Shown here: positions 3,035 through 21,544 of the stretch, piece after piece
Layout: each line of letters opens with the position of its first letter
Position numbering within the stretch: the first letter of the stretch is position 1
DNA from: Treponema sp.
GTDB lineage: Bacteria > Spirochaetota > Spirochaetia > Treponematales > Breznakiellaceae
Assembly: GCA_031266175.1 (NCBI GenBank)
Contig: JAISBN010000037.1
Coordinates: 1 to 55,259 of the forward strand
DNA length: 55,259 nucleotides
Reading direction: 5' to 3'
Notes under the pieces: model-generated
Databases searched by the model: none
What the model was told of the DNA's origin: nothing
Seen by the model: only the letters and a program-made list of their open reading frames with translations
Translations under genes and position numbers: made by a program

Positions 3035-4042
3035 TTAGGTGTTATTTACAGCGGACAGGCTGCCGGCGCCGGAAAGTTTCATGACAAGCCGGTCCATAAG
3101 GATTTCTTCCCAGGCGCTGCCGGAAGAGCGGAAGAGGTATTCGTACTCCCCCAGCAGGGCCAGCGCGCCGTCCGCCCGGGGCCAGCGGCTTGCCGCTTCC
3201 TGGTAATCGGCCCTGGTTTTGGAAGAACCCAGACCGATTTTTTTAAGTTCAAAATCATTGGCCGCCCCGGAAGCGCGGAGGCCAAGGTAATCCCGGAGTT
3301 TACGGAAACACCAGGCCAGGGTTCCCGTAATGGACTGAACGCTTTCCCTGGCCCTGGTAAGGGAACGCACGATTTCCAGGCTGCTTTGCAGATTACCCCG
3401 GGCAATGGCGGCAAAAAGGGTAAAGGCCGATTCTTCCCGGGCATGGGAAAGGCACCGTTCTACATCCGCTCCGGTGACCGTTTTATCTTTGTCCAGAAAC
3501 AGGATAAGCCGCCGGCATTCCCGGCGCAGGGCGTCGGTATTGTTTTCCACCATTTCCAGAATTGTTTCGATCCCGCTGTCGTCGATACGCCGCCCTTCCC
3601 GGCGGAAGAAAGAAGCAAGCCATTCGGTTTTTTTGTTTTCAAAGAGTTCCCAGAAGATGGTTTTATGTTCTCTGGGGACGGCGTCTTCAATGCGCTTGTC
3701 CAGTCTTATTTCTTCCGATACAAGGACGATGGCGGTGTTTTTCGGCGGCCGCCGGATGCAGGAAACCAGCAGTTCCACATCGTCTTTTTTTTTGATAAGC
3801 TCCGCGCTCTTGATGATAAAAAGCCGTTCGTCGGAAAAAAGGCTGCCGTTCTGCAGGACGGAGACTATCTCTTGCGGAGAGGTCTCTCCCGCGTAAAAAC
3901 TGGTTTCTTCGGTATGGGGGGGCAGGCCGGAACGAAGAGCCCCTAGCGCGTCGAGCTTTTCCCCCAGTTCGGGCCCCAGAAAACAGAATACGCCGCCCGG
4001 CCCTGTTTCCCCGGACCGGGCGGCGGTTTTGCCGGCGATCAT
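3035..4042 (-). CDS. holA: DNA polymerase III subunit delta
   Basis: The 335-aa protein matches the clamp-loader delta subunit, which opens the beta sliding clamp. It has the family's N-terminal AAA-like domain without a working P-loop (VFCFLGPELGEK), the stretch SLFSDERLFIIKSAELIKK typical of delta, and the C-terminal collar domain (SAFTLFAAIARGNLQSSLEIVRSL). The length is normal for HolA. The start codon lies 1 bp beyond the lexA stop on the same strand, so the two genes are almost certainly cotranscribed and translationally coupled. That would place a replisome subunit under SOS control. Confidence 0.88.
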   Translation of the reverse strand: MIAGKTAARSGETGPGGVFCFLGPELGEKLDALGALRSGLPPHTEETSFYAGETSPQEIVSVLQNGSLFSDERLFIIKSAELIKKKDDVELLVSCIRRPPKNTAIVLVSEEIRLDKRIEDAVPREHKTIFWELFENKKTEWLASFFRREGRRIDDSGIETILEMVENNTDALRRECRRLILFLDKDKTVTGADVERCLSHAREESAFTLFAAIARGNLQSSLEIVRSLTRARESVQSITGTLAWCFRKLRDYLGLRASGAANDFELKKIGLGSSKTRADYQEAASRWPRADGALALLGEYEYLFRSSGSAWEEILMDRLVMKLSGAGSLSAVNNT

Positions 4043-9157: not shown

Positions 9158-10129
9158 TCAGGCTTTACGGTACGCATCCCAGCTGGTTTTGATAAGGGTT
9201 TCCAGGTCCGAATATTCCGGCTTCCAGCCCAGCAGTTTACGGGCCAGCGCCGCCGAGGCGGTAAGTTTTTCCGGGTCCCCCGGCCGGCGGTCTACAACTC
9301 GGGAAGGAATCGGCTTTCCGGTAATGCGGCGGGCGGTTTCCAGCACCTCCATCACCGAGGAACCGGTTTCACTTCCCAGGTTCACCGTCAGGCTTTTGTT
9401 GTTGGCGCCGATATAGTCCAGGGCCAGGGCATGGGCCGCGGCCAGATCGCTGACGTGGATATAGTCCCGGATACAGGTACCGTCGGGGGTACTGTAGTCG
9501 CCGCCGAAAATTTGAAGCTCCCGCCGCATGCCGCAGGCGGTTTCCATAATCACCGGGATAAGGTTGGCGGGGTTCTGTTCCAGCCCCCCAATCCGGCCCC
9601 GGGGATCGTAGCCCGCGGCGTTAAAGTACCGGAGGCTTGCGAAACGTATCCCCTTAAGCCTGTCGTACCAGCCGAGAAATTTTTCGATTTCCAGCTTGGT
9701 AAAACCGTAATAATTTTCCGGGTTAACGGGATGGTTTTCGTCAATGGGCAGATACTTGGGCTCGCCGAAGACCGCGGCGCTGGAAGAAAAGATAATGTAC
9801 TCCAGTCCCGTCTCACTGGCGGCGTTAAGCAGGTGTACGGCGCCGATGATATTGTTCACCGAGTACTTTTCCGGCTTTACCATGGATTCACCCACGGCCT
9901 TGAAGGCCGCCAGGTATACCGCGACCCTGCTTCCGGTTTCCCGCATGGCCCCCGTAAGCTGTTCATAGCGGAGTATGTCGCCGTGGATAAACGCCGCTTC
10001 GGGAAACAGGTTTTCCCGAAGCCCCGACGAAAGGTTGTCAAAGACCGTAACAGCGTGCCCCCGGTCCAGCAGTTCCCGGACTACATGGCTTCCGATATAG
10101 CCCGCGCCCCCAATAACCAGTATGTTCAT
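9158..10129 (-). CDS. galE: UDP-glucose 4-epimerase
   Basis: The 323-aa protein is an extended short-chain dehydrogenase: Rossmann motif GGAGYIG at the N-terminus, DNLSSG for NAD ribose binding, SSSAAVFG with the catalytic serine, and YYGFTKLEIEK with the Tyr-x3-Lys pair. It matches GalE in length and sequence (RYFNAAGYDP, GTCIRDYIHVSDLAAAH). It interconverts UDP-glucose and UDP-galactose for the Leloir pathway or for polysaccharide and glycolipid precursors. No other gal genes are nearby, so a surface-sugar role is as likely as galactose catabolism. It is the last core-like gene before the AT-rich island. Confidence 0.93.
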   Translation of the reverse strand: MNILVIGGAGYIGSHVVRELLDRGHAVTVFDNLSSGLRENLFPEAAFIHGDILRYEQLTGAMRETGSRVAVYLAAFKAVGESMVKPEKYSVNNIIGAVHLLNAASETGLEYIIFSSSAAVFGEPKYLPIDENHPVNPENYYGFTKLEIEKFLGWYDRLKGIRFASLRYFNAAGYDPRGRIGGLEQNPANLIPVIMETACGMRRELQIFGGDYSTPDGTCIRDYIHVSDLAAAHALALDYIGANNKSLTVNLGSETGSSVMEVLETARRITGKPIPSRVVDRRPGDPEKLTASAALARKLLGWKPEYSDLETLIKTSWDAYRKA

Positions 10130-10560
10130 GGGTACGAGTATAGCGGAAGGGAGGAAAAGAAACTATCCCTTAGTAATTTCCGCGAGGACCAAGCCGGGAG
10201 GATCTTGAAAACTGTCTCAAAACTGTCAAAAAGTCAATCATTTTGCTGACCTTTCGCGGGAAAATTGGTTTACCCTGAAGGGAAGTTTCAAATGCCCTTT
10301 CCGGCGGCGTGTAACAAACTTGTGTCGAAAACCGGAATACGGACAATTCGGCCGACCGGGCTTATCAGCATCCGCGAAGGCGGCGAAGCGGCGCCGCTTT
10401 GCTTTAAGCACCAAATAGTCCATCGTTTTTACTGTATACTACATTGTATTATCCATATACCGCGCTGTATATTCAAACAAGATTCTTCGAATAAGCCGTC
10501 GCAGCTGTTTCGGGATTTGCGATTTCCTTATTTAATTTTGAACTTATATCACGAAGGGAG
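10130..10560. other. Divergent intergenic region at the left edge of the island
   Basis: This 431-bp gap lies between the divergent galE and TIM-like genes. It contains a 9-bp direct repeat (AAAACTGTC at 10208 and 10219), the 11-mer GTCTCAAAACT (recurring inverted at 20803-20813), several AT-rich -10-like hexamers between 10435 and 10452, and an inverted repeat at 10455-10472. No convincing ORF, tRNA or recognised riboswitch was found. Base composition turns AT-rich from about 10420 onward. Confidence 0.5.
10455..10472. promoter_or_regulatory. Possible operator upstream of the TIM-like/yjbQ pair
   Basis: ATATAC and GTATAT are separated by 6 bp (CGCGCT). The arms equal the inner arms of the large palindrome at 19570-19619, where they are 8 bp apart. 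A shared regulator is possible, but the different spacing weakens this. Confidence 0.3.
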
Positions 10561-11277
10561 GTGTTTCAAATTAAGAGAAAAATCAGGCCTCCGTATTTTG
10601 AGGTGGGAGTAAAAAATTATATATACGGCGATGCGGTTTTTGAGATGGCAAAAGTTCTGGAAGCCTGTTCGAAAAAGTACGATATCGATGTACTTTATAT
10701 TGTGCCATATACCGAGATCCGAAGGGTAGCGGAAAATACAAATAATCTTGTTATTATCGCTCCTTATATGGACACACTGCGTCCTGGCCGCGGTATGGCA
10801 GATGTTTTGCCTGAAGCGATTCAGGCGGCGGGGGCACACGGCGTTCTTATGAACCATTCCGAACGTCCAATGTCACTTCATGCCATTAAGGAAACGATTA
10901 ACAGGGCAAACGAGCTGGATCTTTTGTCTTTTGCCTGTGCGGATTCCATCATGGAGGCAAAAGCGGTAGCCCAGCTGCATCCGGATATTATTAACCCTGA
11001 GCCAACCGAACTTATCGGATCGGGCACCGCAAGCGACATGGGTTACGTGAAAGAATCCATCAAGGCTGTTAAAGCTATTGATCCGCATATTTTGGTTGAA
11101 CAGGCGGCGGGAATCACCAAAGGGCAGCAGGTTTACGATTTTATTTATGCCGGTTCAGAAGGCGCCGGAGCCGGTTCCGGTATTTTTAACGCCGCCAATC
11201 CATATTCAACGGCGGAAGAAATGATTTACAGTGTCAGAAAAGCCTACAATGCCTTGAAAGATGAAGGCAAATTATAA
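10561..11277 (+). CDS. Triosephosphate isomerase-like sugar-phosphate isomerase
   Basis: The product is a TIM-barrel of about 235 residues that keeps the TIM catalytic set: Lys in FEVGVKNY, His in NHSERP (GHSER-like) and Glu in PEPTELIGSGTAS, with a phosphate-binding AGITKG. It belongs to the divergent TpiA-like group found in sugar and polyol clusters (EryH, LerI), whose members isomerise tetrulose phosphates, rather than to housekeeping TpiA. It forms a two-gene unit with yjbQ. The track start is GTG at 10561, but this overlaps the Shine-Dalgarno AAGGGAGG. The in-frame ATT at 10570 has ideal spacing and may be the true start. It is AT-richer than the flanking genes. Confidence 0.82.
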   Translation: MFQIKRKIRPPYFEVGVKNYIYGDAVFEMAKVLEACSKKYDIDVLYIVPYTEIRRVAENTNNLVIIAPYMDTLRPGRGMADVLPEAIQAAGAHGVLMNHSERPMSLHAIKETINRANELDLLSFACADSIMEAKAVAQLHPDIINPEPTELIGSGTASDMGYVKESIKAVKAIDPHILVEQAAGITKGQQVYDFIYAGSEGAGAGSGIFNAANPYSTAEEMIYSVRKAYNALKDEGKL

Positions 11278-11298
11278 GGGATATAAGGAGCTTTACCA

Positions 11299-11796
11299 AT
11301 GAAAGTATTCAGAGAGTCATTTAAAACACGTTCTACGGGATTGTATCCCACGTTTCACAAGGTTACAGAAACGGTCAGTGAAATCCTGAATCGTTCCGGG
11401 GTAAAAAATGGAATATGCGTGGTTTATTCACACCATACAACATGTTCCGTCTTTACGCAGGAATGTTCCATGGATAAGGCTTATAATGGGCTTGAGTATC
11501 TGCAGCAGGATCTAACGGATATTTTCGAAAAGATTATTCCCACCTGCCGGAAGGAAAACCAGTATATGCATCCCGGTCCTGAGCTTACGGAATATGCAAT
11601 CGGTATCGGTGAAAGCAAGCCGGATGCCCTTAATACGGACGCCCATTTAAGATCCGTATTTTTAGGAAGAAGTGAAAGCATAGTTATTGTAGACGGTAAG
11701 CTTGATCTTGGCCCGTTTGGACATATTTATTTCGTCGATTTTGACAAAACCCGTATACGTGAGCGTGAAGTGCAAGTACAGATCATTGGAGAATGA
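11299..11796 (+). CDS. yjbQ: YjbQ family protein (UPF0047)
   Basis: The 165-aa protein shows the UPF0047/YjbQ signature: YSHHTTCSVFTQE near residue 38, HLRSVFLGRSE, and GKLDLGPFGHIYFVDFDKTR at the C-terminus. E. coli YjbQ is annotated as a secondary thiamine-phosphate synthase from a weak in vivo activity, and its true role is unclear. It follows the TIM-like gene by 21 bp with a good AAGGAG-type site, so the two are cotranscribed. In a sugar locus a sugar-phosphate function is at least as plausible as thiamine synthesis. Confidence 0.88.
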   Translation: MKVFRESFKTRSTGLYPTFHKVTETVSEILNRSGVKNGICVVYSHHTTCSVFTQECSMDKAYNGLEYLQQDLTDIFEKIIPTCRKENQYMHPGPELTEYAIGIGESKPDALNTDAHLRSVFLGRSESIVIVDGKLDLGPFGHIYFVDFDKTRIREREVQVQIIGE

Positions 11797-11817
11797 CAAA
11801 AGCCGCCATGGAAATTG

Positions 11818-11862
11818 CCGGCCAAAGAGGGATTGCCTTACCGGTCAATCCCCCTTGGCCGG
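11818..11862 (+). terminator. Strong hairpin after yjbQ
   Basis: CCGGCCAA..GGGATTG pairs with CAATCC..TTGGCCGG across a loop of about 10 nt, with a small bulge and mismatch. It lies 22 bp after the yjbQ stop. No U-tract follows, so it may act as a 3' stabiliser or a factor-assisted terminator. Confidence 0.5.
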
Positions 11863-11995
11863 GATCTCTTGATACAAAATTTACAAACCCCAACCCCGGG
11901 CCGGATAATCCGCATACCGCCAGATTGACCTGACCAGACATGATATACTAAACTAATAAAACTATTTGAAGAAGCTGTATCCTGAGGTAAATCTG

Positions 11996-12868
11996 ATGGA
12001 CGATATTGTAAAAAATATTATATTCAATCTTAATGACACCAGAGCCTTTAATGGATGGGTTGGCTTTAATTCTCCCGGAGCCATCGAACAAAAATCGGGC
12101 CTCTGGATTACCAAAGCAGGGACACGATATTACGAATCAAAGGGTTTTGATTATGATCCCCGTAAACAGCTCCCCCATTTTGAATGGGGTGCGGTAGCCG
12201 ATGGCGAATTAAACCTCAACTATAACAATACTTCCACCGTGCTTAAAGAAGGCATGTATTATATCATGCCGGAGAATATCCAGTTAAAAGCCCGGGGATT
12301 TAAAAAAACGCTTTTGATTTGGTTTGAATTTACAGGCTGTCTATGCGATTCAATCTTTCCTGTTCTTGGAGGTTTTGAAAACGGAGTCGCTACCGGAAGA
12401 TATTCTTACGGACAGATAAAATCGGTGCTTCAAATGGCATATATCCTGCAATATCATCCTGTTATGTTTAATCTTAGGGCTCAAAGTTTTCTTTGGCAAT
12501 TTATCGCCGAGACTTCCGGTTCAATTTCTTATACCATTCAAAATTTCAGCCCCGAAATCAAACATGTCATAAACTATATACATAACATTTCCCCAGATCG
12601 TAAAGTTAGTGTTACGCAGCTCGCGGATGAATCCACTTTATCCGTGGAAACTTTCCGCAAACGCTTTCAAGCTGAAGTTGGGGAATCTCCCATACAGTAC
12701 CTGCTACATCACCGTATAACGAAAGCAAAAGAACTGCTCAGCGATAAAAATCTAACCATCAAGCAGATAGCATTTGAGTCGGGGTTTTCCGATCCCCTCT
12801 ATTTTTCACGCCTTTTCAAAAAATACGAAGGTGTTAACCCTCTCACTTTCCGCAGGGAAATATATTAG
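11996..12868 (+). CDS. AraC family transcriptional regulator
   Basis: The C-terminal third carries the two helix-turn-helices of AraC regulators (VSVTQLADESTLSVETFRKRF; LTIKQIAFESGFSDPLYFSRLFKKYEGVNPLTFR). The N-terminal part is a cupin-like sensing domain (LKEGMYYIMPENIQLKARG). The track begins at a TTG (11966), but the ATG at 11996 has GAGG at a good distance and is preferred, giving 290 aa. It converges on the ABC permease gene and lies within the sugar island, so it probably activates the transporter or catabolic genes in response to the substrate. Sequence and composition fit Firmicute-type relatives. Confidence 0.88.
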   Translation: MDDIVKNIIFNLNDTRAFNGWVGFNSPGAIEQKSGLWITKAGTRYYESKGFDYDPRKQLPHFEWGAVADGELNLNYNNTSTVLKEGMYYIMPENIQLKARGFKKTLLIWFEFTGCLCDSIFPVLGGFENGVATGRYSYGQIKSVLQMAYILQYHPVMFNLRAQSFLWQFIAETSGSISYTIQNFSPEIKHVINYIHNISPDRKVSVTQLADESTLSVETFRKRFQAEVGESPIQYLLHHRITKAKELLSDKNLTIKQIAFESGFSDPLYFSRLFKKYEGVNPLTFRREIY

Positions 12869-12895
12869 GCTTGTTCGGAAGCCCGTGAAGATGTA

Positions 12896-13870
12896 TCATG
12901 CCGTTTTTTTGCTGTGGGCCTCAAATGTCTGAAGCAGTACCGCAATAATAAGGACCAATCCTGTCGCGACAAACTGATAATACACAGGCATCTGTATCAT
13001 TATCAACCCGGTCTGTAGAGTACCCAATATTGCGATGCCAAGAAAGGACCCCAACATATTGCCTTTTCCGCCGGAAAGCGCCGTGCCGCCTAAAACAACC
13101 GCCGCTACCGAATCCAGCGCATAGGACCCTCCCGCGGTTGCTTGCGCTGCTCCCAGCCGGGACGCCAGCATCAGGCCCGCAAACGCTGCCAGAATAGAAC
13201 ATAATGTATATACAAGAATACGCACCCTGTCAATATTTACACCGGCGATACGGGCCGCCTCAGCATTACCGCCAATACAGTATACATATCTGCCAAATAC
13301 GGTATATTTCATCGTAATAAAAAATAGAATATACAACGCAAACAGTATGATTATGGGAAGGGGAACCGTAAATATTTTAGTTGTTCCCAGAAATGAAAAA
13401 GCAGGATCCCTGACCATAATTGAATTACCTTCACTCAGTATATATATACAGCCCTTATAGATGGACATAAATGCCAATGTGGTGATAAAGGCGTTGACCT
13501 TTAGTTTAGAAATCAAAAATCCGTTGAGCAGCCCGGCGGTTAATCCAAAAAGCATGGCTATGAGAAATACTAAAATATAATTCATGCCCATTTTTTCACT
13601 CAAATAAGCCGCCAATATTGCTGTAAACGCGGCAACCTCTCCTACCGAAAGATCAAATCCTCCCGTCAGAATACAGAGAGTTTGACCGATACATATGATA
13701 CCGATAACCGACAGGGTCATTCCGATGGAATAGAATGTTCTTATAGAGAAAAAATGCTCGTTTAATAATGAAAACACCAGAATTACCAATGCCAGAGCAA
13801 CCAATACGATCCACTTGTTAAGTTGAGCCATAATGATATTTCCGGGTAACAATTTGTCGTTATTCACCAT
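12896..13870 (-). CDS. Ribose/monosaccharide ABC transporter permease (RbsC-like)
   Basis: This hydrophobic protein of about 324 aa has eight or more membrane segments and family signatures (LTGGFDLSVGEVAAF, GGSYALDSVAAVVLGGTALSGGKGNMLGS). It forms the inner-membrane channel of a CUT2-type importer. The track starts at GTG 13879, overlapping the ATPase stop as GTGA. The ATG at 13870 gives a cleaner start and is used here; the difference is three residues. It is the last gene of the kinase-isomerase-transporter series. Confidence 0.92.
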   Translation of the reverse strand: MVNNDKLLPGNIIMAQLNKWIVLVALALVILVFSLLNEHFFSIRTFYSIGMTLSVIGIICIGQTLCILTGGFDLSVGEVAAFTAILAAYLSEKMGMNYILVFLIAMLFGLTAGLLNGFLISKLKVNAFITTLAFMSIYKGCIYILSEGNSIMVRDPAFSFLGTTKIFTVPLPIIILFALYILFFITMKYTVFGRYVYCIGGNAEAARIAGVNIDRVRILVYTLCSILAAFAGLMLASRLGAAQATAGGSYALDSVAAVVLGGTALSGGKGNMLGSFLGIAILGTLQTGLIMIQMPVYYQFVATGLVLIIAVLLQTFEAHSKKTA

Positions 13871-13875
13871 ACACC

Positions 13876-15384
13876 TCACCCAACAACCGCGAATTTAAGG
13901 AGATCTTCTTCCGTGATCGTAGCGGTATTCTCAATTTCCCCTTGAATGCCGCCGTCCCGGAAAATGTAAATTCTGTCGCTCATCCCTATTATTTCGGGCA
14001 ACTCCGAACTGATGAAGATAATCGCTTTACCCTCCACCGCAAGTCCCCGAATCAGCCTATATATTTCCGATTTCGTTCCCACATCTATGCCTCTTGTTGG
14101 TTCATCGAATATTAAAATATCCGCGTTAGCGCCAAGCCATCGGCCGATAATGATTTTTTGTTGATTGCCGCCGGAAAGATTATTTACGACAGTCATATCA
14201 TTCGGGGCTTTTATTTTAAGCGCCAACATTTGTTTGACTGACGCGGCAGTCTCATCTTTTTCATTTATAAAACCATTCTTTGACAATCTTTTTATAAAAG
14301 GTATTGTTATATTGGTACGTATTGACGAGATTAAAACAAGTCCCTGTTCATGCCTGTCTTCGGGTACAAAACCGATTCCCGCTTTAACCGCGTCATTCGT
14401 CTTCTGTATTTTGATTTCTTTGCCGTTTTTATAAATAACGCCGCTGTCTTTTTTATCTATTCCGAACATCGCCCGGACGGTTTCCGTTCTTCCCGAGCCT
14501 ACAATGCCAAAAAAACCAACGATTTCACCCTTATGCACCTCGAAATTTATGTTTTTTATACTATTTCCCGCATTAAGATCCTTTATCGCAAGGACGACTT
14601 CATTATCCCGTTTTGATTCGTACAAACGATTTTCAAAAAGTTTAACATCCCGTCCGACCATCATACTCACAATATCTTTCGTATCAATATCCCGTATATC
14701 CTTTGTATCAATATACTTTCCGTCTTTCAAAACCGTAATTCTGTCGCATATCCTTTGTATTTCGGTTAAACGATGGCTGACATATATAATGCTTATACCC
14801 CTGCCGGCCAGCGTTTTGATAAGTTTGAACAGTTGGTCCGTTTCCTCGTCTGAGAGTGATGATGTGGGTTCGTCCAGGGCAAGGATTTTTATGTCAAATG
14901 ATATTGCTTTTAGAATCTCAACTATCTGCTTCTGCCCCACTGATAAATTCCCCGCGTTTTGTTTCAGGTTTATACTTTCACCGGATGAGCCCAAAAGCCT
15001 TTGAATTGCCCCTGCTCTTCCGTACATTCCTTTCCAATCCACCGTTCCCAATTTTGTTTTTGGATATTGACCCATTAATATGTTTTCCATCACCGTTAAA
15101 TGGGGAGACAAAAAAACTTCCTGTGAAATAATTGAAATGCCTTCATTCCTGGCGTCTTTCGCGTTGTTAAATTTTACTTCATTGCCGCAAATCTTTATCG
15201 TTCCGCCGTAGTTTTTATAGAGGCCGTTCAGTATTTTGAGCATAGTTGATTTTCCCGCTCCGTTTTCTCCGCAAAGCGCGTGAACCTCGCCTTGTCTAAG
15301 TTCAAATTGAACATTATCCAGGGCGCGTACACCGGGAAATTCTTTTGTGATATGTTCCATAGATAAAACGATCGGCTGAGTCAT
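13876..15384 (-). CDS. Sugar ABC transporter ATP-binding protein (RbsA/MglA-like)
   Basis: The 502-aa protein contains two ABC cassettes in tandem, as in all CUT2 importers. The first has Walker A GENGAGKST, signature LSVGQKQ and Walker B ILALDEPTSSL. The second has the usual degenerate P-loop (GIVGSGRTE), signature LSGGNQQK and ILIFDEPTRGID. It powers uptake by the neighbouring permease. A good GGAG precedes the ATG. A strong hairpin separates it from the upstream binding-protein gene. Confidence 0.95.
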   Translation of the reverse strand: MTQPIVLSMEHITKEFPGVRALDNVQFELRQGEVHALCGENGAGKSTMLKILNGLYKNYGGTIKICGNEVKFNNAKDARNEGISIISQEVFLSPHLTVMENILMGQYPKTKLGTVDWKGMYGRAGAIQRLLGSSGESINLKQNAGNLSVGQKQIVEILKAISFDIKILALDEPTSSLSDEETDQLFKLIKTLAGRGISIIYVSHRLTEIQRICDRITVLKDGKYIDTKDIRDIDTKDIVSMMVGRDVKLFENRLYESKRDNEVVLAIKDLNAGNSIKNINFEVHKGEIVGFFGIVGSGRTETVRAMFGIDKKDSGVIYKNGKEIKIQKTNDAVKAGIGFVPEDRHEQGLVLISSIRTNITIPFIKRLSKNGFINEKDETAASVKQMLALKIKAPNDMTVVNNLSGGNQQKIIIGRWLGANADILIFDEPTRGIDVGTKSEIYRLIRGLAVEGKAIIFISSELPEIIGMSDRIYIFRDGGIQGEIENTATITEEDLLKFAVVG

Positions 15385-15404
15385 AATACTCCATCCTAAT
15401 ATTT

Positions 15405-15439
15405 AACCAATAACCCCGCCACAGACGGGGTTATTGGTT
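15405..15439 (-). terminator. Intercistronic 14-bp hairpin between the binding-protein and ATPase genes
   Basis: A perfect 14-bp stem (AACCAATAACCCCG) with a 7-nt loop lies between the binding-protein stop and the ATPase start. There is no U-tract on the minus strand. It probably acts as a partial terminator or mRNA stabiliser, raising binding-protein expression over the membrane components as in malE-malF. Confidence 0.6.
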
Positions 15440-15474
15440 TTATCTAATACGAGCACTCATATCATTTTCATCGT

Positions 15475-16515
15475 TCAGTAAGGCATTTTCCCGTCGGGAA
15501 ATTTTTCCCTCCAGTTGTCAATTGACACAACGCCTGCACCGACCAGGGTCTCCTGCGGCAGTTCTTTTCCGTTTACCAATAAGTCATAAAAGAACTGTAT
15601 CATTGTTTGGCCTTCAAGAAAAGGATCCATGTACATGGATATGTAACTATTGGCAATATCGCCGCCCATATTAAATACATCCAAACTGGGTTGATAACAT
15701 CCGGTTCCACTTACCAGGATTTTCTTGAAATCAAAACCTTTTTCGATAAAGGCTCTTACCGTTGCATACGCGGGAGTATCCTCACCACACGGAACTATCC
15801 AATGGGTAACGTTTGGATTAGCGTTAATCGTCGCTAGGGCCGCCGCTATGGAATCATCAAAAGTCCCCGTCTTACAATCGGTTTCGATAATGTCCGCCGG
15901 TTTTAACTCGGGGCAATTTTTCAGCAGTGCATCGCGAAAGCCGTCACAGGTTACTTTGACTGTCGGTACCGTATACATTCCCAGTACCATAACTTTGATA
16001 ACATTTCCTGGGGCAAAAAAATTACGCTCCTTAGCCCTAGCCGCAAGCGCTTCGCCGCCTTCATATCCAAAGTCGTAGGTCGGTACCCCGAGATAGGGCG
16101 CGGCATATCCCGTCCCGTCTTCCAGAATATCGTCAATCGCCAGCACAGGGATATTGGCCTCCCTAAAAGCCCTTATCACCGCCGGCCCAAGGCCCGCATC
16201 GGGGACACAGATAGCAACTGCGTCGACCCCCGCCGAAATAACGCTGTCCACAGCCTGCATGCATCGTTCATTGTTATAATCTACATCGATGCCCCCATAG
16301 TCTATCCCCAGTTCTTCCGCCTTTGATATGGCCCCTTTGTCCTCGGTCGAAAACCAGCTGTCGGATAGTTTTTTACATATGTAACGAACCGTAAACTGTT
16401 TTTTTTGTCCGCCAACATCAGCGGTTTTCCCGGCGGAACAACTTGAAAACACGGCAAATAATACGAATATCGCCGCCAATAAGAACAAAGCCAGCTTCCC
16501 TGTTTTTTTCCTCAT
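15475..16515 (-). CDS. Sugar ABC transporter substrate-binding lipoprotein
   Basis: This is a type I periplasmic binding protein of the LacI/RbsB fold. The start is set at the ATG at 16515, which follows GAGGGGG and opens a classical lipoprotein signal (MRKKTGKLALFLLAAIFVLF, lipobox FSSC). The longer track ORF (373 aa) would bury this signal. The mature protein shows two alpha/beta lobes (GVDAVAICVPDAGLGPAVIRAF, IPVLAIDDI). It is membrane-anchored and delivers the ligand to the RbsAC-like transporter. The ligand is unknown; genes next door suggest a monosaccharide or polyol. Confidence 0.92.
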   Translation of the reverse strand: MRKKTGKLALFLLAAIFVLFAVFSSCSAGKTADVGGQKKQFTVRYICKKLSDSWFSTEDKGAISKAEELGIDYGGIDVDYNNERCMQAVDSVISAGVDAVAICVPDAGLGPAVIRAFREANIPVLAIDDILEDGTGYAAPYLGVPTYDFGYEGGEALAARAKERNFFAPGNVIKVMVLGMYTVPTVKVTCDGFRDALLKNCPELKPADIIETDCKTGTFDDSIAAALATINANPNVTHWIVPCGEDTPAYATVRAFIEKGFDFKKILVSGTGCYQPSLDVFNMGGDIANSYISMYMDPFLEGQTMIQFFYDLLVNGKELPQETLVGAGVVSIDNWREKFPDGKMPY

Positions 16516-16638
16516 CTTTTTATCCCCCTCGTTCACGTATTTCGTGATTACTTTAGTGAAACAGTGTTTCATACTTCCTGTAATATTCCAATACACTGTA
16601 AGGTAAAAACGCTGGACGATTTGGTAAAGTCTCGTGCT

Positions 16639-18024
16639 TTACGAAATCACCTCTATGCCCATTAACGCGCATAAATCTTTCATGGCATCGAAACAATCCC
16701 CCCGGACAATTACGATATGCTGACCAGGACACTCCTCGACATATCTGTCCATGCCCATCTCCGGTTTAATTAAAAGGCTGGGAAAATCGGGCGTGGGCTC
16801 TTCCCAGCCCAGCTCAGTCCATTTCATGGGAGATACTGTCTCCGCTCTGGACAGAAACATCGCGTACCTATCGCCTTTCCTGAATAACCTGGCTAACGTG
16901 ACTGGTCCTGTTTTTACTTTGGAAACACAGCTTATGCCGATAAAAAAATCACCCAATCGGCTTGATTTAAACCTATGTTCCCCGTCAGCAAAGTCCTTTG
17001 GCAAAAAACCGCAAATACCCGCCAAGACCTGTTCGTCCAAAAACTCATAATTTTCCATAAATACCGATGTCTGGCCCGTCAAGGCGCTCAGCATGACGGT
17101 TGTAATCAGACCATGGGCGTCACACTCGCATATTACGGAAAAATTCCTGTCGGCCAGTAATGACTGGGCCATACAGGGATTTATCCCCATGAATTTTGTT
17201 GCTCCGGAAACGCATTTTATGGACAGGGCACTCAAGCCCCTGTCGTCCGCTTTGTTTTTCATGGCGTAATACAAGCGCGCCGCCCTGTCAAGCGCTGTAT
17301 CAGTTACCTCATTGATAAATACCGTCCGCGCTTTTATATCCGATTTCACGGCATCGATTTCACTTTGGGGAGCGTCGTCCATTACCTTGCCGATCTCATA
17401 GCTGAAATAGTCCTCTATTTCAACGCCGAGCTTTTTGAATACCTCCGTTTTATCGTATACACAGGTAAACAAGCCCATATCCGCATAGCCGATTAATCCA
17501 ATCCGGGCATTGGTAATTTGTTTATACGCATTTATTATTTGCGCATACTTCCCAATCTGGTTAAATTTATGCGGTTCGTTTGGTTTTTCGTAAATCACCT
17601 TAAACCGGTACCCCATGTCCTTAAGAACCGGCGTTAACGCGGTAAGCGCTGCTGGAGCGGCCGGTGAATGCAGTTTGCCTGAGGCATCCATCTTAGCTCC
17701 GGTGGAGTATATAAGCAGAGGTTTGTTCAGATAGTCTTTTAACACAGCCATAATATAAGGCGTAAGATGCCATGAAACAATGTTCACTATGATAAAATCA
17801 AAATTAAGCCTTTCTGTTCCGGATATGGCCTCATCTGTGGTCAAGCTATTTTTTAGCTCATAACTGCCGGCTACTTCTACGGAATCCAAAGAACGTATGC
17901 CGTTTTCCATTTCATTGATCACGGGTTTTAGCCATTCGGCCGGGTAAACCTCTTCAAAACAGTGTAATAACAACGCTCTCGCTTTCTTCATGGCTGGCCC
18001 CTTTTCAGTTTTGTTTTCTGTCAT
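16639..18024 (-). CDS. L-fucose/L-arabinose isomerase-like protein
   Basis: The 461-aa protein resembles the FucI/AraA-type isomerase superfamily: a Rossmann-like N-terminal half (FDFIIVNIVSWHLTPYIMAVL, ARIGLIGYADMGLF) and a C-terminal half with candidate metal-site residues (CECDAHGLITTVMLSALTG). It probably interconverts an aldose and a ketose before phosphorylation by the adjacent FGGY kinase. Members of this subgroup are mostly uncharacterised, so the substrate cannot be named. AGGAGGAA lies 7 nt before the ATG. The gene is 24 bp after the kinase stop on the same strand. Confidence 0.8.
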   Translation of the reverse strand: MTENKTEKGPAMKKARALLLHCFEEVYPAEWLKPVINEMENGIRSLDSVEVAGSYELKNSLTTDEAISGTERLNFDFIIVNIVSWHLTPYIMAVLKDYLNKPLLIYSTGAKMDASGKLHSPAAPAALTALTPVLKDMGYRFKVIYEKPNEPHKFNQIGKYAQIINAYKQITNARIGLIGYADMGLFTCVYDKTEVFKKLGVEIEDYFSYEIGKVMDDAPQSEIDAVKSDIKARTVFINEVTDTALDRAARLYYAMKNKADDRGLSALSIKCVSGATKFMGINPCMAQSLLADRNFSVICECDAHGLITTVMLSALTGQTSVFMENYEFLDEQVLAGICGFLPKDFADGEHRFKSSRLGDFFIGISCVSKVKTGPVTLARLFRKGDRYAMFLSRAETVSPMKWTELGWEEPTPDFPSLLIKPEMGMDRYVEECPGQHIVIVRGDCFDAMKDLCALMGIEVIS

Positions 18025-18048
18025 AATATGTTCCTCCTGGGTCGGATG

Positions 18049-19548
18049 CTAAAATATTCCGGATAAACACCGGTAGATAACAAGATATTTTTGATAAGCC
18101 GCGTCATATATTTTTCCCCGCGGCTCGTCGGGGTGATAAACCGCTTCCACTTTTAAAAACGCCGTCATTTCCTCAATGTTACGATAAAGTCCGGCAGCCA
18201 ATGCGCCCAGCATGGCGGCCCCCAGGGAAGTGGACTCGCTTTGCTGCATCACAAGTATATCCCTGCCGCAGATATCGGCTTTGATTGAATTCCAAAGCGC
18301 ACTTCGGGAACCCCCGCCTATGGAACGCAGCTCCTTCACCGGTATCCCGCATTGGACCAGGTATTCCAGGTTTTCCCGGAGCATATAACCCAAACCTTCA
18401 AGGATGGCCCGTATGATATGAGGGCGGCCCATTTCCAGTTTCAACCCAAACAGAACGCCCCGGGCGCGGGTATTTACCTCGCCCACCAGCTTACCTCCAA
18501 AATGGGGTATTAATAAAAGCCCGTCAGAGGCCGGCGGTACCGGCGCCGCCAGGTTATCCATCTCCCGGTAAACCACTGCTCCCCGTTCGGCACAGGAGAG
18601 GGCAAATTCCGGCATAAATTCGTCCCTGAACCATTTAAGGATAATAGCTCCCGCAGGATTATAAGCCAGACAGAGGTACAGATGGTTAAAATGCCGGTAT
18701 AAGGAAGGCCGAATCGGATTATCGTAATCAGGCTTTTCAACGGTAGCGGCGACAGCCAAACAGGTACCGGTGGTCTCGGTTACCATGCCGCTACAGATAT
18801 TCCCGCTTCCCAGGGCAGAGGCGACCTGATCCACGGCGCCGGTAGATACCGGGATACCCTGGACCAATCCGGTTTGCGCCGCGGCTTCAGCGTTTACCCT
18901 GGCGGCGGTAACGGCGCAGGGATACACCTCGGGCAGTTTTTTTTGATCAATCCCCGCGGCGTCCAGTATGGGGGAATAATAGGCGGTACGGTTAATATCA
19001 AAGTATCCCGAAGAGGACAATAATGCCGGATTTGATACGCAAAGCCCGGTTAGGCGCAGGATGAGATAATCTTCCAGTAAAAGGAACTTATGGGTTTTTT
19101 CATACACTTCCGGCAGGTTACGGGAAAACCATAGAAGTTTGGCAATCGGAACGGCGGGGGTCAATTCATTTAATCCCGTATGCCGGTAAAAAACAAGCGG
19201 GTCTATTTTTTCTTTAAGTTCTTCACATTCCCGGAAAGCCCGGGAATCCAGCCATACGACGGCATTCCCCAAAGCCCGGCCGGACTTATCCACCGGTATG
19301 ATAGTTTCACCCTGGGTAGTAACGGTAAGCATCCGTATATCCCCGGGATTGGGACAGGCCCGTACCACAGCGGCGGAACCGGTACACAAGGCTGTCCAAT
19401 AGACTTCCGGATCAAGCTCTACAAAATTTTCCGCGGGAGTTAAAAGATTATATTCAACAGAGTGACTGGCTATAAGAGAAAGCTGCCGGTTAAACAGGCA
19501 GACTTTTATCGCCGTAGTACCAGCATCAACAGTCAATAAATAACACAA
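18049..19548 (-). CDS. FGGY family carbohydrate kinase (xylulokinase-like)
   Basis: The 499-aa protein has the sugar-kinase/actin fold: N-terminal phosphate-binding DAGTTAIKV, VDQVASALGSGNICSGMVTETTGT in the middle, and the FGGY signature region GIPVKELRSIGGGSRSALWNSIKADICG. Members phosphorylate ketoses or polyols such as xylulose, erythrulose and glycerol. Translation starts at TTG with GGAGGAA 6 nt upstream. An overlapping ATG three bases before it is in another frame and closed at once. It is the first gene behind the palindromic operator and directly downstream of the GntR/AraR-type regulator. Confidence 0.92.
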   Translation of the reverse strand: MCYLLTVDAGTTAIKVCLFNRQLSLIASHSVEYNLLTPAENFVELDPEVYWTALCTGSAAVVRACPNPGDIRMLTVTTQGETIIPVDKSGRALGNAVVWLDSRAFRECEELKEKIDPLVFYRHTGLNELTPAVPIAKLLWFSRNLPEVYEKTHKFLLLEDYLILRLTGLCVSNPALLSSSGYFDINRTAYYSPILDAAGIDQKKLPEVYPCAVTAARVNAEAAAQTGLVQGIPVSTGAVDQVASALGSGNICSGMVTETTGTCLAVAATVEKPDYDNPIRPSLYRHFNHLYLCLAYNPAGAIILKWFRDEFMPEFALSCAERGAVVYREMDNLAAPVPPASDGLLLIPHFGGKLVGEVNTRARGVLFGLKLEMGRPHIIRAILEGLGYMLRENLEYLVQCGIPVKELRSIGGGSRSALWNSIKADICGRDILVMQQSESTSLGAAMLGALAAGLYRNIEEMTAFLKVEAVYHPDEPRGKIYDAAYQKYLVIYRCLSGIF

Positions 19549-19569
19549 GCCATATTCCTCCGGAAACCG

Positions 19570-19619
19570 TTAATATGCCGTAACATATACGCATATGCGT
19601 ATATGTTACGGCATATTAA
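19570..19619. promoter_or_regulatory. 50-bp perfect palindrome, probable operator
   Basis: Positions 19570-19619 form an uninterrupted perfect inverted repeat with no loop, centred on ATACGCATATGCGTAT. It covers the -10 element of the kinase promoter and lies directly downstream of the GntR/AraR-type repressor gene. AraR-type operators are short palindromes around a TACGTA-like core, so this resembles one or two nested binding sites rather than a terminator. Confidence 0.75.
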
Positions 19620-19631
19620 TTACCTTGTCAA
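19603..19631 (-). promoter_or_regulatory. Promoter of the kinase-isomerase-transporter operon
   Basis: TTGACA (19626-19631) and TAACAT (19603-19608) are separated by 17 bp on the minus strand, about 55 bp before the kinase start. The -10 lies inside the palindrome, so a bound repressor would block polymerase. Confidence 0.65.
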
Positions 19632-19658
19632 CAAAAATTTTTTAAACCGCCGGGTTTT

Positions 19659-20762
19659 TTAAAACTTCAGCTTTGAAAAAAGCCTCTGTTTATCTGTTTT
19701 TTTACCACAGCTATTCCGTTTAACCAGCTGTGGTTCAAAGATATTGATATACGGCCAGGGCCGTTTCTGATGGATCAAGTCTAACAAGGCCCGGGCAGCC
19801 ATTTCTCCCAAAACTTGCTTTGGGTGAGCAATTGAGGTAAGAGAAGGCTCTACCGCGGAAGCCAGAACAGTATCATCAAAGCCGATAATGGATATTTCAT
19901 CAGGAATACGGATACCGGCTTTCTTTATATAATGCATACTCTCCAGCGCCACTTCATCGTTATAACAGAAAAGGGCGCTGATCTGTGAGCCGTACACCTT
20001 TTTCACCAAATGCGCTTCCAGGTCCGGCCCGCAGGGGATAAGCAGCGGTTTTTCAAGCCCCAGGGCGGCGCATTTCTCGGTGAATCCCTGTTGCCTCAGA
20101 AGGGAATCTTTATACTGGTCCATATAAACGACGGCCATATTGGTATGCCCCAGTTCATGAAAATATTGGGCTGCAAGACTCCCTCCCTTCTGTTCATCTA
20201 GCATCGTATAAGAAGTTTCAATTCCTTCGTAACGGCTATCAATCATGATATAAGGAATACCGGCGGCCCGCAGCCGGCGGAAAGCTTCCCGGAGGCGATC
20301 CGAAACCGTACCGCAGCGATGGCTGGGCTCTACAATAATTCCGGAAGAGCCTTTTTGGAGGATCTCCTCCAGAATTTCGCAGATACGAACGGAATCGTCC
20401 CGGCTGTCGCTAATAATGAAGTTGCAATTATGCTCCGTGAGGACCTTGGAAGTACCCTTAATATAATAGGGAACAAAATACGTATAGGCCATGTCCAGAA
20501 TAACATCAATATTTAATTTTTTAGCGGCAAGGCTGGAAGCGATGCAAAAGGTCCCTTTCCCATGTATTTTCCGGAGATACCCGGCGTTTACCAGCCGGGA
20601 CAAGGCGTTTCTTACCGTAAGACGTCCTATACCATAGGATTCCACCATTTCCGACTCACTGGGCAGCTTGTCGCCAACTTTAATCTCCCCGGACTCAATT
20701 TGTGCCTTGATCCGCTCCGAGAGCTGATAATAGAGAGGGTTGGGATCATTTCGATATAACAC
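19659..20762 (-). CDS. GntR/LacI-type transcriptional repressor (AraR-like)
   Basis: The N-terminal 70 residues are a GntR winged helix (PLYYQLSERIKAQIESGEIKVGDKLPSESEMVESYGIGRLTVRNAL). The remainder is a LacI-type ligand-binding domain (SSGIIVEPSH, GGSLAAQYFHELGH, SALFCYNDEVALESMHYIKKAGIRIPDEISIIGFDD). This is the AraR architecture, in which sugar binding releases operator DNA. The track starts at a TTG (20795); the GTG at 20762 follows CGGAG and matches the usual family start (xYRNDPNPLYYQL), so it is preferred. It probably controls the kinase-to-permease operon through the palindrome 40 bp downstream of its stop, and may autoregulate through an imperfect repeat at 20789-20813. Confidence 0.9.
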   Translation of the reverse strand: MLYRNDPNPLYYQLSERIKAQIESGEIKVGDKLPSESEMVESYGIGRLTVRNALSRLVNAGYLRKIHGKGTFCIASSLAAKKLNIDVILDMAYTYFVPYYIKGTSKVLTEHNCNFIISDSRDDSVRICEILEEILQKGSSGIIVEPSHRCGTVSDRLREAFRRLRAAGIPYIMIDSRYEGIETSYTMLDEQKGGSLAAQYFHELGHTNMAVVYMDQYKDSLLRQQGFTEKCAALGLEKPLLIPCGPDLEAHLVKKVYGSQISALFCYNDEVALESMHYIKKAGIRIPDEISIIGFDDTVLASAVEPSLTSIAHPKQVLGEMAARALLDLIHQKRPWPYINIFEPQLVKRNSCGKKTDKQRLFSKLKF

Positions 20763-20924
20763 AAACGCAACTCCGATCTTGTGGGGCTGTTTCAAAAGCT
20801 AAAGTTTTGAGACGGGCTTTATAATAACACGAAAGAACCGCCCGGAAAAGGTATCGGCAGCGCCGGAATTTTAAAATGCGAAATGCGGCTGTTTTGAATT
20901 TATTTTCCCTTTGGACCAGGATAT

Positions 20925-20954: not shown

Positions 20955-20961
20955 CCCTATC

Positions 20962-21333
20962 ATGAAAACCGAAAGCTGGAAACAGGCAAAAGCGGCGTTT
21001 GGAATTGAGTTCAATCCGGGGATATCATGCTGCTGGCTTCCCGGGGCGGCAAGACAGCGGAGCTGCTTCCCATTTTACAGATATGCAGGCATAAAAAAGC
21101 CGTCGTTATTTCGATAACTGAAAATCTTGAATCGCCCATGGCGCGGGAGTCGGACATCGTTCTCAAAATGAATGTCCCTAGGGAAACGGACCGGTATAAC
21201 ACCCGGGGAACCACCAGTTTTGTGGTGTTGTGCGCGCTTTTTGATGCCTTACAGGCAGCATTATAGAAGAAACGGATTATCAAAATGAAAAATTCGCCTT
21301 GGTACGTCCCGGCGGCGCTGTGGGTAAACGGTT
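20962..21333 (+). pseudogene. Decayed SIS-domain sugar isomerase gene
   Basis: The open piece at 21027-21266 reads LASRGGKTAELLPI...SDIVLKMNV...DRYNTRGTTSFVVLCALFDALQAAL, clearly the core of a SIS-domain sugar-phosphate isomerase/binding protein. Upstream in that frame GDI precedes it, as in intact relatives (GDVVIAISRGGKT). The original start (ATG 20962, MKTESWKQAKAAF) is in another frame and most of the N-terminal domain is missing. After a stop at 21264, the next frame continues the C-terminus (IEETDYQNEKFALVRPGGAVGKRLN). At least two frameshifts and an internal deletion are needed, so no full product can be made. Confidence 0.8.
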
Positions 21334-21544
21334 AAATCCCGAACAGCCCCTTTACGATTGAGGAAATGGCCGAGGCGGAGGCAAAACGATTCGGCAAAAC
21401 CGGCTTTGTTGTCATTGTTACCCCGAATGCCGCCCATTACCCGGCGGTGAAAGCGTTCCTGAACGGGGGAAATCCACATCGTATACGACAAACCCCTCTG
21501 TTTTGAGGAATCCGAAACCGCGGAGCTGGCAAAAAAACAGCAAC
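21334..21544 (+). pseudogene. Fragment of a Gfo/Idh/MocA-family oxidoreductase gene
   Basis: One frame reads EEMAEAEAKRFGKTGFVVIVTPNAAHYPAVKAFLNG. A single-base shift in a G-run then gives GEIHIVYDKPLCFEESETAELAKKQQ. Together they match the middle of the NAD-binding domain of Gfo/Idh/MocA dehydrogenases (VTPNxxH, GIHVxxDKPL). The nucleotide-binding N-terminus and the whole C-terminal domain are absent. The fragment runs into the terminator of the convergent tRNA-Asn gene. It is probably debris of the same sugar locus as the SIS gene. Confidence 0.8.

Follow-up and report, generated by a model that had tools for sequence, protein, structure and literature searches.

The window, the whole stretch of 55,259 nucleotides of Treponema sp. 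DNA that was analysed (contig JAISBN010000037.1, positions 1 to 55,259), contains a sugar operon on the minus strand, preceded by the gene for a repressor of the AraR type. A perfect palindrome lies between the repressor gene and the first gene of the operon. The features of the locus are as follows.

12896-13879, minus strand: sugar ABC transporter permease, AraH/RbsC type
13876-15384, minus strand: sugar ABC transporter ATPase, RbsA/AraG type
15475-16596, minus strand: sugar ABC transporter substrate-binding protein
16639-18024, minus strand: fucose/arabinose/sulfoquinovose-isomerase-like protein
18049-19548, minus strand: xylulokinase-like sugar kinase of the FGGY family, encoded by the operon's first gene, TTG start at 19548
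19556-19561, minus strand: Shine-Dalgarno GGAGGA of the kinase gene, read from the sequence
19570-19619, no strand: 50-bp perfect loop-free palindrome, proposed operator
19583-19606, no strand: central 24 bp of the palindrome, ACATATACGCATATGCGTATATGT, with strict alternation of purines and pyrimidines
19603-19608, minus strand: -10 hexamer TAACAT, wholly within the palindrome
19626-19631, minus strand: -35 hexamer TTGACA, not part of the palindrome, in the promoter of the kinase operon
19659-20762, minus strand: AraR-type repressor, GntR winged helix-turn-helix with a LacI/RbsR-type sugar sensor

The kinase (300 bits against the xylulokinase family, cut-off 380) and the isomerase-like protein (75 bits against sulfoquinovose isomerase, cut-off 700) resemble the named families only distantly. 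The region from 10000 to 20000, which holds the sugar operon, had a G+C content of 42-49% as opposed to 53-62% elsewhere in the window, and this low G+C, together with the finding of no close relatives, suggests that the operon was acquired horizontally. An inverted repeat, AACCAATAACCCCGCCACAGACGGGGTTATTGGTT, was located at 15405-15439 between the genes for the substrate-binding protein and the ABC ATPase, where it is likely to form an mRNA-stabilising or attenuating hairpin that permits an excess of the binding protein.

The palindrome and the kinase operon promoter

The sequence at 19570-19619 was an exact palindrome, its two 25-nt arms, TTAATATGCCGTAACATATACGCAT and ATGCGTATATGTTACGGCATATTAA, being 100% complementary and meeting with a loop of 0 nt. 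The number of palindromes with 25-bp arms expected by chance in the whole window was 6e-11 to 2e-10, and no other perfect palindrome without a loop exceeded 16 bp in the window. It was also the longest in the 1.94 Mb of loci examined, where the runner-up was 36 bp. Palindromes reaching a score of 13 numbered 16 in 634 kb of DNA sampled from this genome and from two related ones, and mostly resembled ordinary hairpins. The strictly alternating run of 24 bp at the centre was noticed after the fact and was matched in length by 6 of 5000 shuffled palindromes.

No second copy of the arm or the core was found in the source genome (160 contigs, 83.7% complete) when up to 3 mismatches were allowed; one weak match to an 18-mer, with 3 mismatches, was present on C23. 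A single genomic copy is consistent with a local regulator that has just one target.

The palindrome spans the -10 hexamer, which is separated from TTGACA by a spacer of 17 bp on the minus strand, and extends to the leader of the kinase, isomerase and ABC transporter operon. Promoter-like matches at the scan threshold were equally common in shuffled sequence, so it is the location of the hexamers, and not their scan score, that supports the promoter call. Transcription is predicted to start approximately 7 nt past the -10 hexamer, near 19596 and almost at the dyad axis, so that the leader would carry one arm of the palindrome.

The earlier note, whose range of 19570-19631 was the palindrome extended to include the -35 hexamer, had described a loop-free, exact 50-bp inverted repeat that overlaps a TTGACA-17-TAACAT promoter and follows an AraR-like repressor gene, and the analysis bore out all of these elements. 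Its remark that the repeat is far longer than a usual operator also held when the 50 bp were set against the 16 bp of B. subtilis AraR boxes (PMC4218819) and the 16-22 bp of LacI-family sites (PMC4052901).

The AraR-type regulator and the motifs within the palindrome

The repressor open reading frame was listed from 20795, but a GTG start with a Shine-Dalgarno sequence at 20762 is likelier. The N-terminus is a GntR winged helix-turn-helix (PF00392, E=6.8e-19) that matches the NagR/YvoA and AraR DNA-binding domains in the PDB, and the C-terminus is a LacI/GalR-type sugar-binding domain (Peripla_BP_3, PF13377, E=1.1e-29) whose best solved relative was the effector domain of B. subtilis AraR (3tb6, E=3.9e-36). 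Judged from its sequence, the protein has the domain plan of AraR, that is, of the AraR subfamily of GntR regulators. In AraR, E30, R41 and R45 dock the recognition helix (PMC4218819); the corresponding residues of the repressor, E36, R47 and R51, were invariant in 5 aligned AraR-type proteins. The search for repressor orthologues that could give a phylogenetic footprint of the palindrome found no close one, full-length identity reaching at most 35%.

Several minor features surround the start of the repressor gene. An inverted repeat, CTGTTTCAAAAGCTAAAGTTTTGAGACGG, at 20787-20815, immediately before the likely start, was dissimilar to the 50-bp palindrome and is possibly a site for the repressor's own promoter. 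Partial copies of the palindrome near the same start (14/20 at 20756) were unconvincing. Remnants of a SIS-type sugar-phosphate isomerase gene with broken frames, recognised by eye, occupied 20960-21400 on the plus strand, divergent from the repressor gene.

The likeness to B. subtilis AraR extends beyond the conserved residues, since AraR is likewise a sugar-gene repressor that joins a GntR-type helix-turn-helix to a LacI-type sensor and its operators are palindromic and located in promoters. However, AraR binds separate 16-bp boxes as cooperative pairs with a DNA loop (PMC4218819), whereas the palindrome is one continuous stretch of 50 bp that does not match the ara-box consensus. When the 16-bp consensus, AtWtGTaCGTAcaaWT (PMC4218819), was sought in the palindrome, the best match was 10/16, a value with 106 equal matches in the window, and this candidate was rejected. 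The canonical GT-N4-AC core of the GntR family was not found in the palindrome; relative to the family operator NyGTNxACNy, whose central GT and AC are separated by a short spacer, it had only GT-N1-AC and GT-N7-AC, both off-centre.

The earlier note had also suggested that the repeat may hold nested or overlapping dimer sites, a proposal to which the sequence gave no support. Within the 50 bp, no pair of boxes was found at a spacing of 13, 22 or 32 bp, the off-centre boxes being 8 and 28 bp apart only, and the best off-centre box, with 6 of 8 pairs, was equalled by 22% of shuffled palindromes. The internal boxes were thus not above chance.

Palindromes at related loci

Overlapping LacI-family sites about 13 bp apart have been reported at 110 operons, together with a functional case in E. 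coli (PMC4052901). Such operators, as those of E. coli GntR at gntKU, resemble the palindrome in that they are long palindromes composed of overlapping sites at sugar operons (PMC4052901), and differ from it in that the 50 bp lack a recognisable pair at 13, 22 or 32 bp. The limited literature set yielded no account of overlapping-operator palindromes beyond the papers already named.

The 13-bp spacing was present in the palindromes of two groups of loci from related spirochaetes, all of them shorter than 50 bp. At L007, from another genus of the same family, an AraR-type regulator faces an endo-galactanase-like gene with the promoter TTGACA-17-TACCAT. This promoter leads into CCATCAATTTACACGTGTAAATAACACGTGTAAATTGATGG, a palindrome of 41 bp that has a single mismatch and a centre of one base, covers the -10 hexamer and reaches the Shine-Dalgarno sequence. 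It contains two ACACGTGT boxes 13 bp apart, and its symmetry runs about 6 bp per side past them. L014 and L167, which encode LacI regulators in two genera, have in common a 31-bp palindrome, TGAGTAACCGGTTTACTAAACCGGTTACTCA, directly before the start of the regulator gene. The full symmetry of these 31 bp looks selected because the sequence is identical in the two genera and fits two 18-bp sites 13 bp apart. Two further palindromes, also shorter than 50 bp, are associated with TTGACA hexamers: at the LacI locus L044, a 41-bp palindrome follows TTGACA and covers the regulator gene's -10, and at L042, a 45-bp palindrome stands between TTGACA, which it directly follows, and an isomerase-like gene preceded by an open frame judged by eye, not by family search, to be ROK-like.

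These loci serve as examples and not as statistics because promoter palindromes near regulators were only weakly enriched over background (2/11 versus 1/16 palindromes). A survey of 42 AraR-type loci of Lachnospiraceae and Spirochaetia found no such palindrome at a target gene of the regulator, and the idea that long palindromes are a general trait of AraR was rejected. The sole match in the Lachnospiraceae survey, L086 (Eubacterium uniforme), was discarded as it lay upstream of a Fic-domain-like gene and not a sugar gene; here TTTAGGGAACTTTT occurred four times within 3515-3616, its orientation alternating from copy to copy, and no further copies occurred elsewhere in the 13-kb locus.

Two other observations concern palindromes in the surveyed loci. 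A 36-bp loop-free perfect palindrome, CAATGATATAGTCTGACTAGTCAGACTATATCATTG, was located upstream of the thrS region at L203 (4146-4181), where it was dropped as a promoter element since no promoter could be tied to it. An identical 20-bp palindrome, AAACGTTTACGTAAACGTTT, adjoins TTGACA promoters at the regulator loci of one genus (L153, 2661-2680; L155, 2663-2682; L157, 1074-1093).

A putative operator and the competing explanations

The palindrome is dyad-symmetric DNA that lies over a promoter and beside a repressor gene, as is generally the case for a repressor operator. We consider it probable (about 0.77) that the AraR-type repressor, whose gene lies just upstream, uses it as its operator. 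The domain plan and docking residues of the repressor, the single genomic copy and the parallels at L007, L044, L014/L167 and L042 speak for this reading; the poor match to the ara box, the lack of a canonical GntR core and the absence of such palindromes from the 42 surveyed loci speak against it. As long as inducer is absent, at least one repressor dimer would bind symmetrically over the -10 hexamer and the start site, keeping RNA polymerase off the TTGACA-17-TAACAT promoter. Two dimers would be the probable number, since 50 bp are available and each dimer takes up about 16-20 bp. The inducer may be a sugar or sugar phosphate, either imported or made by the operon, that binds the LacI-type sensor and frees the repressor from the DNA, so that the genes of the kinase, the isomerase and the ABC transporter would be turned on. 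A comparable extended promoter site for several dimers of a GntR-type repressor of sugar catabolism is that of E. coli NanR on (GGTATA)3 (PMC8012715). NanR, however, uses direct repeats, three in number, and has a sensor of the FadR type, in contrast to the inverted repeat of the present system and the LacI-type sensor of its repressor.

The recognition unit may be either the entire dyad or a shorter operator at its centre that template switching extended into a perfect palindrome. One version of the former, in which all 50 bp form a single functional dyad occupied by a repressor tetramer or a pair of dimers, arranged in a way undescribed for the family and without separable 16-18-bp boxes, is unlikely; the alternating core might then assist by local melting or a cruciform at the start of transcription. 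Extrusion of a cruciform, which the earlier note had also raised, is possible at 50 bp but drew no support from the analysis. Extended palindromes at sugar promoters are already known, and this one, most likely the docking site of the repressor, is unusual in its length and perfection and not in its function.

The alternative that fares best is compatible with an operator. Template switching during replication may have lengthened an ordinary, shorter operator into a perfect palindrome whose outer arms have no function. Internal boxes no better than chance inside a symmetry that is perfect over 50 bp speak for such a mutational product, as does the L007 symmetry that exceeds its two boxes, whereas the 31 bp of L014 and L167, identical in two genera and accounted for by two sites, argue against it. 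Overall, this origin is somewhat unlikely.

That another regulator binds the palindrome, either a distant LacI or GntR protein or a global factor, while the adjacent AraR-type protein acts elsewhere, is quite improbable. The lack of a canonical GntR-type core and the presence of an AraC-type gene at the far end of the operon point in this direction. However, AraC-type proteins bind direct repeats and not perfect palindromes. Moreover, a single genomic site is ill-suited to a global factor and the adjacent repressor gene is the obvious local candidate.

The palindrome could also act in RNA, since the repressor and kinase genes have the same orientation and are not separated by a strong terminator. 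In read-through transcripts that continue past the repressor gene, the palindrome would fold into a long stem (-49.6 kcal/mol, z = -6.25, 23-bp stem) open to cleavage by RNase III or serving to uncouple the repressor and kinase mRNAs. The same fold is, however, expected of any perfect palindrome, and the leader transcribed from the operon's own promoter, which would begin inside the palindrome, had no unusual fold (z = 0.17). The stem is A+T-rich, not G+C-rich, and is followed by CGGUUUCCGG, with no U-tract, and an intrinsic terminator was therefore ruled out; the reading as a terminator only, which the earlier note had named as evidence against an operator, proved weak. An RNA element also leaves the exact placement on the -10 hexamer unexplained. 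Action at the RNA level is very doubtful and less likely than a repressor operator.

As an example of an extended operator, the 50-bp dyad on the -10 hexamer is clean and testable, with shorter counterparts at promoters associated with AraR-type, LacI and possibly ROK regulators in related spirochaetes. It could reveal how GntR/LacI hybrid repressors fill more than one site at the start point of transcription and could tell whether long perfect promoter palindromes reflect selection or arise as by-products of template switching.

Finally, an assembly artefact, conceivable in a genome in 160 contigs that is 83.7% complete, is scarcely credible, since chimeric inversions duplicate their flanks and here there is no flank duplication, the flanks differ in sequence, the genes and signals are intact and 50 bp is shorter than an ordinary sequencing read.
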